64,000 bases of DNA. Source: Bombilactobacillus apium (GTDB taxonomy: Bacteria > Bacillota > Bacilli > Lactobacillales > Lactobacillaceae). The notes under the pieces were generated by a model that did no database searches, had not been told where the DNA came from, and was given only the letters and a program-made list of their open reading frames with translations. Shown piece after piece: positions 16,802 to 20,382 of this stretch (position 1 is the first letter of the stretch; the number at the start of each line of letters is the position of its first letter). The DNA lies in the NCBI RefSeq assembly GCF_013385145.1, contig NZ_JABZEC010000003.1, positions 186,001-250,000 on the forward strand, read 5' to 3'. The position numbers and the translations under genes were made by a program.

Positions 16802-16965
16802 TTTAGAATCCTCCATGGAGCTTTTCCATAATCAAATCAATTATAGCTTTTTCCCCCAGCGCTGACTAGTTACCCTGCTTAATTGATCTCCAAAAACTTC
16901 GTTAGAAAAATCTCTCTCGAAGGTCTTCGATCAAAGACCACCGAAAAAAGACTAATCTACTTCAA

Positions 16966-17016
16966 AGCAGACGAAAATTCGAACAAAAATTATTTTTATT
17001 CGAATCTTCGTCTGCT
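16966..17016. repeat. Long inverted repeat downstream of the lipoyl operon
   Basis: Arms AGCAGACGAaaATTCGAA and TTCGAATcTTCGTCTGCT are nearly perfect over 18 bases around a 15-nt AT-rich loop. No T-run follows on either strand, so it is not a standard terminator. It lies 79 bp past the end of the lipoyl-carrier gene and may stabilise the operon's 3' end. Confidence 0.6.
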
Positions 17017-17094
17017 TGCTCTATTTAAGTTTCCTTTACCTTGGCCGTGTAATTTTCCTGTCTTGATTTTATCTTAAATCTTTATCTTTTAATC

Positions 17095-17418
17095 TTAGTA
17101 CAATTCAACTAGCCAATTCAATTTTTGATCAGTTGCATTAAGTTGCTCGGGATGTTCCAACAAGGCAACATTGAGTTTTGCTACTTTTCCCGCTATTGGG
17201 GTATACAAATCCAAGACAGACTTGGAACTTTCCACGGAAGCCAGGACATCACCAACTTGTAAACTAGTCAAATCATCCGGATAGTCAACAAAGGAGACCT
17301 CTCCAACTTCATCTTGACCTTGAGCATTCAAGCCGAGGCGCAAATGGCCGTTCGCTTGCTTTTCTTGCCAAAAATATTGGGCATCAGTTGTCGTCGTGGA
17401 ATCTAAATTTGTTTGCAT
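17095..17418 (-). CDS. GcvH-like lipoyl carrier protein
   Basis: A 107-residue single lipoyl/H-protein domain, shorter than glycine-cleavage H protein (about 125-130). The hallmark loop is VESSKSVLDLYTPIAGKV near residues 62-79, with Lys66 as the predicted lipoylation site, matching ESVK.V.D.Y.P.sG in GcvH. Its ATG overlaps the stop of the upstream lyase gene (TAATG, 1 nt shared), so the two are translationally coupled. lplA is two genes upstream. No gcvT, gcvP, lpd or 2-oxoacid dehydrogenase gene is in the window, so it is not an ordinary glycine-cleavage component. It presumably shuttles a lipoyl-bound group for the lyase-like partner. Confidence 0.85.
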   Translation of the reverse strand: MQTNLDSTTTTDAQYFWQEKQANGHLRLGLNAQGQDEVGEVSFVDYPDDLTSLQVGDVLASVESSKSVLDLYTPIAGKVAKLNVALLEHPEQLNATDQKLNWLVELY

Positions 17419-18806
17419 TAGTTAAAAACCTCCTGGAATAATTGCTGATGATGCTCTTGAAATAATTGTAAAATTTGGTCTACTTTAGTGACCGCATTGG
17501 GAATTCGTTCTACTTGGGGAGTCATAATATCCGTTAATTGCTCCGCTGATAAAACTTGCGTAATCTCCGGACTTTGTAAAATACTAGTTCGCAAGGAAAT
17601 CCCTTGAGCTTCAGCCGTTAAGCGAGCTTGATACAAATAAGCATGAGCTTGTCGACGTCCGACATGAGGTGTCAAAGCGTTCATAATCGCTCCCGAATAC
17701 ATGGTTCCATCATCGCGATCCAAATTAGCTCGCATCTGCTCTAAGTTAAACTGACCCTTGTTTAATAAAGTTCCTAGGTAATTCAGCTGTCCGGAAAGGT
17801 ACATCATAATTTCTGGAAGGGCTACATATAAATTACGCCAAACCGTGGTATCTTTATCGCCATGAACTTGCATTTGTTCATACATCAAAGTCATTTCATT
17901 GCGAATCACCTTACTTAAGTTAACTACCGATTCACATAAATACGGGCAACGGGAGGTGGGAATAACGGTTGAACCCTGCCGCTCGGGCGCGTAAGGTTCT
18001 TGAAACTCCCGCACCAAAGTCTGACTCATATAAAGCAACTCTTGCCCCAAACGGCCTCCCACCTGCGCAATTTCCGTGACTAAATGAGTATAATCAACAA
18101 AACGCTCGCGTTGAGTATGCCAGTACATTTCCGGAACACCAAGCCCCAGTAATTCGCAAAATTTAGCTTCCACCGCTTGATATTGGGGACCAATCATCTG
18201 CGACAAACCATCCGCATTGGCTAAACTCCCACAAAAAGTCTGCTGTGTCTGCTTTTCCAAAGCCGTTAAAAGATGCTCATACTCGTTTAAAAAAATTCCC
18301 AGTTTGAAGCCCAAAGTTGTATAAGAACCATAAATCCGGTGAGTTACACAAGCCGTCAAGGAAGATTGATAACGCCGAGTCAATTGTGCCAACCGTTTAA
18401 TCACAATCTCTAAATAACGGATTAAAATGGGGTGGGCCGCCTGCAATTGTAAAACGTAGGCCGTATCTTCAATATCTTCACTGGCTGCTCCTTGGTGGAG
18501 ATATTGTTCACCTCCATTTTGAAAACGCGGTTGCACATAAGCCATTAAGCCGGCTAAATAGTGGCCTCGACGAGCAACTGACAGCCGCAATTTTCGCAGA
18601 TTAAAGGTTTTCGGCTGCAGAACTTGAGCGATTTCTTGGGCCGCAGCTGCGGGAATCAATTGCTGGGAAGCCATAGCCTGAGCCAAAGCTGTTTCACAGC
18701 GACAAATACATCGCAAACGGCTCTCATCAGTCCAAACTGCCCGCATTGCTGCTGTCGAATATTCATTTTGGTTAAAAATTGAACTGAGCATTTCTCCGCC
18801 AGCCAT
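17418..18806 (-). CDS. PcaB/PurB-like protein of the fumarase/aspartase superfamily with altered catalytic loop
   Basis: 462 residues aligning end to end with 3-carboxymuconate cycloisomerase-type lyases. Conserved: YLHQGAASEDIEDTAYVLQL near residue 85 (family GATS.DI.DT), VTHRIYGSYTTLGFKLG near 151 with the His of the TH motif, WHTQRERFVD near 232, DRDDGTMYSGAIMNAL and GRRQAHAYLYQA in the C-terminal part. The signature GSSxMPxKxNP reads GSTVIPTSRCP near 277-287: catalytic Ser is Thr, and the substrate-binding Lys and Asn are Ser and Cys. So it either runs different chemistry or is not a lyase. Start ATG 18806 follows AGGAGG by 6 nt; one base separates it from lplA. Substrate unknown. Confidence 0.85.
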   Translation of the reverse strand: MAGGEMLSSIFNQNEYSTAAMRAVWTDESRLRCICRCETALAQAMASQQLIPAAAAQEIAQVLQPKTFNLRKLRLSVARRGHYLAGLMAYVQPRFQNGGEQYLHQGAASEDIEDTAYVLQLQAAHPILIRYLEIVIKRLAQLTRRYQSSLTACVTHRIYGSYTTLGFKLGIFLNEYEHLLTALEKQTQQTFCGSLANADGLSQMIGPQYQAVEAKFCELLGLGVPEMYWHTQRERFVDYTHLVTEIAQVGGRLGQELLYMSQTLVREFQEPYAPERQGSTVIPTSRCPYLCESVVNLSKVIRNEMTLMYEQMQVHGDKDTTVWRNLYVALPEIMMYLSGQLNYLGTLLNKGQFNLEQMRANLDRDDGTMYSGAIMNALTPHVGRRQAHAYLYQARLTAEAQGISLRTSILQSPEITQVLSAEQLTDIMTPQVERIPNAVTKVDQILQLFQEHHQQLFQEVFN

Positions 18807-18807
18807 C

Positions 18808-19860
18808 TTAGACCTCCTCATCATATTGAGTTTCGAGCAACATTTCTGCTAATTCTGCTGGTTGAAAAGCGCCTAAATTATGCTTTAAGTCGGCTTGTTG
18901 CAAGGCTTCAACTAAATTTTCTTTGTGGAAAGGAACCCCCAACAATTGGGCTTCGACTAGCTGCAGATTCCCAGAGGCTAAAGAAAAGTCCCCATATAGT
19001 TTCAACTGAGTTAAGATCCCTTTTTCGACCGAAAAACTAGCTTCGACTGTTCCCAGTCCCGCAAAATGACGGGCATGAAACTGGGTTCCCGGGCGTTTTG
19101 GTCCTTGGATCCAAGCTGGGGAACCATATTTCTTTTTAGCTAGAGCTAACATCCGTTCCCAATCAGCAGTCTGCATACGATAGGTAGGAACTTGGGCTAA
19201 ATCAGTAACCCCAAAAGCTTTTTTGATGAATAAAGTTTGTAACTCCTCTAGGGTAATATCTTGATATTGCGGGGCAAAATACTGCCGCAAATTGGTGACC
19301 CGACTATGGACCGATTTGACACCCTTCGAGCGTAACTTGGCTTTCAGGGGATGTAAGGCCAAAGAGGCAGCGTCCAAATCAACATCGACCATCAAGGTTC
19401 CCCCGCAAGAGAAACGATCCCCGACTCGCGCAGAGGACATCCCTGAAAACTTTTTCCCGTCCACCGTTAAATCATTGCGACCTCCCATTTCTGCGGGAAC
19501 TCCTAATTCCTGTAAAAGTGCTAGCGCAGTCTGCGCATAGTAAGCAAAATTTTGATAATTATTTCCCCGATCCGTGTCGACAAAACAATAGGTCAAATTA
19601 CCCGGATCGACATAGACAGCTCCACCACCAGCTCCGCGACGCATTACCGTAATATCATGCTCATGAATATAATCTAAATTTAATTCGGCCTCTAAATCCT
19701 GATTAACTCCACAAATTACAAATTTTTGAATCGGATGAAAGAAGTACAGTAAAGTTTGATCGCCAAACTGAGTCTCACTTTCAAAAAATTCCGACATTGC
19801 TTGACTGATATAGGGGTACTTTAAGTACTCCGCCCCGTTTGATAAATCAATATATAACAT
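18808..19860 (-). CDS. lplA: Lipoate-protein ligase A family
   Basis: Attaches lipoate to a lysine of carrier domains through lipoyl-AMP. Motifs: TVMRRGAGGGAVYVDPGN near residue 68 (RR.sGGGaVyhD in LplA), GRNDLTVDGKKFSGMSSA near 130 with the catalytic Lys, and the C-terminal accessory domain starting YGSPAWIQGPKRPGTQF. ATG 19860 gives an N-terminus like other LplAs (MLYIDLSNGAEYLKYPYISQ); the site ahead is only GGGGAAG. First gene of a three-gene operon with the PcaB-like protein and the lipoyl carrier, which is its obvious substrate. Confidence 0.93.
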   Translation of the reverse strand: MLYIDLSNGAEYLKYPYISQAMSEFFESETQFGDQTLLYFFHPIQKFVICGVNQDLEAELNLDYIHEHDITVMRRGAGGGAVYVDPGNLTYCFVDTDRGNNYQNFAYYAQTALALLQELGVPAEMGGRNDLTVDGKKFSGMSSARVGDRFSCGGTLMVDVDLDAASLALHPLKAKLRSKGVKSVHSRVTNLRQYFAPQYQDITLEELQTLFIKKAFGVTDLAQVPTYRMQTADWERMLALAKKKYGSPAWIQGPKRPGTQFHARHFAGLGTVEASFSVEKGILTQLKLYGDFSLASGNLQLVEAQLLGVPFHKENLVEALQQADLKHNLGAFQPAELAEMLLETQYDEEV

Positions 19861-19923
19861 AAATTCTTCCCCATCTTCCAAATCGTTTCCAACAATTACC
19901 AAAATAAAACTGGGTTACCCCAG

Positions 19924-20382
19924 CTATTCTTCTCGACTTGGACGCACAACCATGACATCAGTCAATGCGTTTCGCGTCACATAGGCGGAAACTGAACCGA
20001 CTAATAAACGTTCCACCGCATTGAGACCAGTTGAACCAATAACAATCAAGTCTTCATGATAATCTTTCAAAAAATCTAAGGCAATTACGGTCTTGGGATC
20101 GCCAAAACGACTATGAATCTTCACTTGGTCTTCTTTGAGACCCGCAGCCAAAGCCTTTTTTTGCATTTCATCTAAATAAGATTTGGAATCTTCTGCAATC
20201 CGGTAAATCACATCATGAGTCAACAAATTACCATAGGATCCAGAAAATTGCCGGGTATCTAAAACGTTTAAAATATCAAGTGTCGCCTGATTCTGCTGGA
20301 CAATTTGGACGGCGCGAGTGACCGCTAAATCTGCTTCTTTGGAACCATCAACAGGAACTAAAATTCTCTGATATTCATGCAT
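19924..20382 (-). CDS. Universal stress protein (UspA family, ATP-binding type)
   Basis: Single Usp domain of 152 residues. It opens RILVPVDGSKEADLAV, with Asp for the adenine site, and ends VIGSTGLNAVERLLVGSVSAYV.RNALTDVMVV, which matches the G-2x-G-9x-G-S nucleotide motif. It is therefore probably an ATP-binding Usp, unlike the paralogue at 12528. ATG 20382 lies 8 nt after GAGGG. It is upstream of and co-directional with the lplA operon, 63 bp away. Confidence 0.92.
   Translation of the reverse strand: MHEYQRILVPVDGSKEADLAVTRAVQIVQQNQATLDILNVLDTRQFSGSYGNLLTHDVIYRIAEDSKSYLDEMQKKALAAGLKEDQVKIHSRFGDPKTVIALDFLKDYHEDLIVIGSTGLNAVERLLVGSVSAYVTRNALTDVMVVRPSREE

Follow-up and report, generated by a model that had tools for sequence, protein, structure and literature searches.

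A lipoate–protein ligase, a fumarase-superfamily lyase with an altered dicarboxylate pocket and a lipoyl carrier as a candidate lipoate-dependent cassette of lactobacilli

What does a lyase of the aspartase/fumarase superfamily do when its gene lies between those of a lipoate–protein ligase and a small lipoyl carrier? This question is raised by three genes of Bombilactobacillus apium, found in the 64,000-nucleotide stretch of DNA analysed here (hereafter, the window). To our knowledge, few systems depend on lipoate, a vitamin-like cofactor, and its known chemistry would be widened by a mobile cassette combining its own ligase and carrier with a member of a superfamily that we found nowhere recorded as working with it. 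The three genes and two flanking elements are as follows.

18808-19860, minus strand: lplA, encoding a cassette-type lipoate–protein ligase (350 aa from ATG), assigned by Pfam and NCBIfam, its clade in the LplA tree, motifs and solved relatives
17418-18806, minus strand: gene for an aspartase/fumarase-superfamily lyase with an altered dicarboxylate pocket (462 aa), assigned by Pfam Lyase_1 and ADSL_C, an AF2 model and pocket comparison
17095-17418, minus strand: gene for a gcvH-like lipoyl carrier (107 aa) with a predicted lipoyl-Lys66, assigned by Pfam GCV_H and by this Lys being invariant and aligned
16965-17017, strand unassigned: 26-nt inverted repeat downstream of gcvH with arms 92% complementary, a likely transcription terminator
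19908-19925, minus strand: terminator-like stem in the gap between lplA and the usp gene that lies upstream, by consensus match only

The coordinates agree with the original prediction of three genes on one strand, with a 1-nt gap between lplA and the lyase gene and a 1-nt overlap between the lyase stop and the gcvH start (TAATG). The longest open reading frame for the lyase is 468 aa and opens at 18824, inside the end of lplA; the ATG at 18806 (stop at 17418) is favoured as the start, because homologues start at the same Met and an AGGAGG lies just upstream. The stem at 19908-19925 suggests that the cassette is transcribed as a separate unit. Since the gene order is kept in other genomes at lyase identities of 51-66%, the arrangement is more than chance.

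The first gene had been read as the operon's own lipoylation enzyme, and its LplA family membership was confirmed. The protein has the catalytic and C-terminal domains (Pfam LplA-B_cat, 3.5e-49; Lip_prot_lig_C, 9.7e-16) and the GRNDL..K motif, its closest solved relatives are lipoate–protein ligases, and it narrowly passes the NCBIfam lipoate-ligase equivalog TIGR00545 (281.6 bits vs. 280). The cassette LplAs form their own clade in the LplA tree, in which the lipoate-binding loop is altered. The motifs of the window copy read RRGAGGGAVYVD, GRNDL..GKKFSG and CGGTLM; the first replaces RRxSGGGAVYHD and the last replaces SHGTLM. In most cassette LplAs, the Ser of RRxSGGGAV is changed to Ala or Gly, the next His/Asp/Gln to Val, and SHGT to CGGT or similar.

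Cassette-type LplA was also observed next to a different enzyme, of the mandelate-racemase/muconate-lactonizing (MR_MLE) type, whose nearest NCBIfam family is galactonate dehydratase, with a score below the cut-off. There are four such loci (L137, 5612-10633; L199, 7348-9740; L200, 5504-9421; L201, 5514-9431). An OppA-like binding protein is adjacent in L137, L200 and L201, and gcvH is adjacent in none of the four. By genome, the pairing occurs in L. parabuchneri, L. raoultii and G255 with the OppA-like protein, and in G268 without it. These loci suggest that LplA–carrier modules have been combined with several proton-abstracting enzymes.

Judged from the sequence, the altered loop residues may admit something other than lipoate as cargo, in which case the lyase would act on a free acid and the divergent LplA would then mount this acid on the carrier. 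The replaced RRxSGGGAV and SHGT residues are what such a cargo would call for, and the sister ligases adjoining a dehydratase-like MR_MLE enzyme and an OppA-like binding protein point the same way. However, the ligase does pass the lipoate-ligase cut-off, if narrowly, GRNDL and GKKFSG are intact, and the other ligases of the lyase-bearing genomes also differ at the lipoate-loop positions, so that we consider this explanation quite unlikely.

The carrier matches Pfam GCV_H (3.5e-17) and scores 64 bits against the GcvH equivalog TIGR00527, whose cut-off is 115.85. Its Lys66, the residue originally predicted to be lipoylated, is invariant and aligns with the lipoyl-Lys of H proteins (VESSKSV/VESTKSV). 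The carrier had also been thought unusually short for an H protein, which turned out not to be peculiar, as GcvH-L of the SirTM operon likewise has no C-terminal helix (PMC11490716).

Three other kinds of carrier-like gene were noticed. In L. parakefiri (L028, 11193-12584), GcvH and LplA share one open frame of 463 aa, a possible natural carrier–ligase fusion. Another GcvH group occupies a conserved locus with FtsW-like, MreB-like and ATP synthase genes and no ligase (L126, L129, L133, L135 and L141). A third group (L131, 7317-7643; L136, 9770-10177; L138, 9086-9412) reads ESPNTV, with no Lys, at the lipoyl-Lys position and lies near an lplA–gcvH pair or lplA; it is perhaps a decoy or regulator.

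Does the carrier serve one of the ordinary lipoate users? In the nine lyase-bearing genomes, GcvT had no match and GcvP none above the cut-off, with two sub-threshold fragments only. The glycine cleavage system is thus ruled out, and the linked-system idea passes the check on whether such carriers sit mainly beside gcvT or gcvP. Each of the nine genomes has one 2-oxoacid dehydrogenase E2. That of the window genome sits in a pyruvate dehydrogenase (PDH) operon with an E3-like gene (identities read from the sequences), and PDH E1-E3 are present. Lipoyl synthase had no match in the window genome, and lipoate is therefore presumably scavenged. A remnant of glycine cleavage, or a surplus ligase that salvages lipoate for PDH, would fit a carrier that matches GCV_H and a genome with PDH. 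However, the first of these sits ill with the missing GcvT and GcvP, every lyase-bearing genome has several additional LplA-family genes that could serve PDH, and the lyase would be left unexplained, which makes this explanation scarcely credible.

The distribution of the lyase was determined in 398 Lactobacillaceae genomes with a profile built from two sequences. Eleven copies were found, in 9 of the 398 genomes and in two genera; most of these genomes are Lentilactobacillus (parabuchneri, raoultii, parakefiri, parafarraginis and hilgardii), with further occurrences as a fragment in L. farraginis and in Lactobacillaceae bacterium UBA5807. The lyase gene lies directly behind an lplA of the single cassette clade in all 11 copies and is directly followed by gcvH in nine. 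The cassettes at L024 and L026 have no adjacent gcvH, and both genomes hold another gcvH. In most copies the genes are tightly spaced or overlapping. Cassette-type LplA (E<1e-170) occurs in 13 genomes, nine of which have the lyase, and no lyase was found without cassette-type LplA among the sampled genomes. The lplA–lyase–gcvH linkage is therefore solid: the lyase does not occur mostly alone, as this part of the original prediction required, and the three-gene order recurs. The link is not exclusive on the side of the ligase–carrier pair, however, which is also found without the lyase.

The surroundings of the cassette differ, with at least five neighbourhoods among the 11 copies (usp/peptidase, EIIC_2 with an amino-acid-type ABC transporter, ABC-macrodomain, aldo/keto-reductase and others). 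There is no constant additional operon partner; the neighbours vary by lineage. At the aldo/keto-reductase site, G202, G313 and G255 carry ligase–carrier–ligase–lyase–carrier or remnants thereof, whereas G108 and G157 carry ligase–carrier only; these two vs. three genome states indicate that the triple is gained or lost as a unit. A search for plasmid- or phage-borne copies gave only distant, largely PurB-annotated matches and none on viral contigs, and an anti-phage defence role was set aside, as there was no PADLOC match.

A second, diverged GcvH of the window genome adjoins a PTS_EIIC_2 protein (C9; L005, 8953-10485), and a homologue of this EIIC_2 gene adjoins an lplA–lyase–gcvH cassette in the sister species G005 (L020, 11665-15642). 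The two neighbourhoods suggest that the cassette moved and one carrier was left behind.

Mobility also allows the lyase to be an ordinary metabolic enzyme hitch-hiking beside a mobile lplA–gcvH pair, with no functional link to it. The patchy distribution among the 398 genomes and the occurrence of lplA–gcvH without the lyase are in keeping with this. However, the lyase was found only next to this lplA, in 11/11 copies that span 51-66% identity and at least five neighbourhoods, and its pocket is rebuilt specifically in the cassette clade, as described below. We thus hold hitch-hiking to be improbable, at about one chance in eight or slightly lower in plain terms.

By fold and domains (Pfam Lyase_1 and ADSL_C), the lyase belongs to the aspartase/fumarase superfamily. 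Its top NCBIfam match is XcbD, 3-sulfopropionylcysteine synthase, at 265 bits against a cut-off of 600, and its scores are far below the equivalog or exception cut-offs of PurB, PcaB and XcbD alike. An AlphaFold (AF2) model has a mean pLDDT of 78, with residues 269-292 of the active-site loop below pLDDT 50. When folds are compared, its closest structures are trans-aconitate decarboxylase, CMLE and the fumarate lyase 3c8t of Mesorhizobium, with identities of about 16-26%; action on a protein-bound substrate is not described for any of the solved superfamily relatives that were found. Its nearest homologues in the rest of the phylum retain the canonical motifs. No lplA or gcvH lies beside the distant phylum-wide homologues, which occur in transporter-gene clusters, several with fumarase-like or fumarate-reductase-like genes (neighbours identified by eye).

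The catalytic residues of the superfamily, i.e., the Ser of the SS loop, the His and the acidic partner, are retained: Ser285 and His162 are invariant in 11/11 copies, and residue 323 is Glu (Asp in the window copy). In aspartase, T187, M321, K324 and N326 bind the second carboxylate of the substrate. This numbering was transferred via the signature loop GSSxMPxKxNP, which is firm, and for T187 via the neighbouring His188. The cassette lyases depart from this signature and read GSTV[IV]PT[SV]xxP. The K324 position is S or V and the M321 position I or V in all 11 copies; the T187 position is A in ten (T in the window), and the N326 position is C or E in eight (N in three). K, M and N are kept in 14/14 outgroup lyases. 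When the aspartase AspB was redesigned at these four positions (e.g., T187I or C, M321I, K324M/I/V and N326C), fumarate gave way to acrylate, crotonate or cinnamate as its acceptor (PMC11744663). The same second-carboxylate positions being changed in the cassette lyases, we infer that a dicarboxylate is no longer taken.

A catalytically dead scaffold or carrier regulator would also be expected to lose substrate contacts, and the substrate-binding Lys and Thr and the His-Glu-Arg motif are indeed altered. However, all copies have the catalytic Ser and His, with Glu or Asp as the acidic partner. In addition, the two pairs with unsaturated dS give dN/dS values of 0.046 and 0.112 for the lyase; this strong purifying selection argues against a decaying gene. 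A dead lyase is thus very unlikely.

These results lead us to favour, tentatively and at slightly less than even chances, a self-contained lipoyl-carrier cassette in which the lyase attaches a group to the dihydrolipoyl arm or takes one off, with an acceptor of the mono-acid type. Judging from homology, LplA would lipoylate the carrier at Lys66 at the expense of ATP, drawing on scavenged lipoate, and the dihydrolipoyl dehydrogenase of the genome's PDH operon would reduce the lipoyl arm. With Ser285, His162 and the acidic residue 323, the lyase would then form or cleave a bond in the beta position to a carboxyl-type group; in this step the dihydrolipoyl arm would be the thiol nucleophile or the leaving group, or else would carry the tethered substrate. 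As the pocket for the second carboxylate is gone, we predict an acceptor of the mono-acid or acyl type (acrylate-, crotonate- or cinnamate-like) rather than fumarate. All the chemistry of the cassette is deduced from sequence, and the specific reaction is offered as a proposal. Of the original suggestion of a lyase-like step on a lipoyl-bound group, the linked system has survived, whereas the step itself is still one that we infer.

Much the same chemistry could serve repair instead. The dihydrolipoyl-carrier might trap electrophilic enals or enoates, or become acylated, and a retro-Michael elimination catalysed by the lyase might undo this, in a stress module analogous to SirTM/OYE. Enzymes that clear acyl adducts from lipoyl groups exist, e.g., ABHD11, and the lyase pocket predicts mono-acid-type substrates. 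Furthermore, the SirTM operon, which is responsive to oxidative stress, combines the same LplA2–GcvH-L core with oxidoreductases (PMC4518038, PMC11490716). However, no regulator, oxidoreductase or stress gene is constantly adjacent to the cassette. The class of chemistry is the same as in the preferred reading, and the sequence separates the two poorly. We regard adduct repair as unlikely, with a chance of somewhat less than one in five.

The preferred reading, i.e., a lyase step on the carrier, would amount to a new lipoate-dependent reaction, namely, C-S formation or cleavage, or elimination, of a mono-acid-type group by a natural fumarase-superfamily enzyme on a lipoyl carrier protein; we consider this possible, again with odds a little short of even. 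If true, the lyase, MR_MLE and SirTM/OYE would be interchangeable enzyme modules on dedicated LplA–GcvH pairs in lactobacilli. The cassette is testable in culturable food bacteria (Lentilactobacillus), and no published description of it was found in the open-access literature searched.

Among known systems, the extended SirTM operon (LplA2, GcvH-L, Zn-macrodomain and SirTM, with OYE/LLM) is similar in its dedicated LplA and short GcvH-like carrier, in being tightly packed and independent of the glycine cleavage system, and in its occurrence in Lactobacillales. In contrast, the cassette has no sirtuin or macrodomain gene, with neither Zn-macrodomain nor SirTM lying between its gcvH and lplA, and its partner is a fumarase-superfamily lyase. 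L. parafarraginis, a lyase-cassette genome, also has a SirTM-type operon (L130, 6064-10456) with LplA, sirtuin-like, macrodomain, GcvH-L and OYE genes, of which the macrodomain and OYE were confirmed by family search and the sirtuin-like gene was recognised by eye and position. In the trees, the carrier and ligase of this operon group apart from those of the cassette, with long branches that make the exact placement unsure. A link to SirTM through a macrodomain gene near three Lentilactobacillus copies of the cassette (L022, L023 and L025) was rejected: this gene is read from the other strand, its product is of the O-acetyl-ADP-ribose deacetylase type, and no SirTM was noticed adjacent to it.

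The sHdr/LbpA system of sulfur oxidisers likewise stands apart from GCV and PDH and has a specific ligase for its GcvH-like carrier (PMC6067878). Its partner enzyme is different, and no Hdr-like genes were recognised by eye in the cassette or the neighbouring ORFs. Thus, dedicated lipoyl-carrier cassettes are a known kind of system, and what is new here is a partner enzyme for which we found no record in this role. The pairing of a rebuilt-pocket lyase with a lipoyl carrier suggests that lipoate has a use beyond those described to date.

On the side of the lyase, XcbD of the bacterial coenzyme M pathway is of the same superfamily, and its name implies thiol addition; with a score of less than half the cut-off, this addition may serve as a chemical precedent and a lead, not as membership. 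CMLE/PcaB, trans-aconitate decarboxylase, 3c8t and PurB share the fold, the catalytic Ser and the partner Glu/Asp with the lyase, whereas the pocket Lys, Met and, mostly, Asn are changed in the cassette clade. The engineered AspB variants are altered at the same pocket positions and in a similar direction; AspB is an engineered amino-lyase, whereas the cassette lyase is natural, with S/V at K324 and, in most copies, Glu at N326. The cassette lyase would thus be the natural counterpart of aspartase variants engineered for beta-substituted mono-acids.
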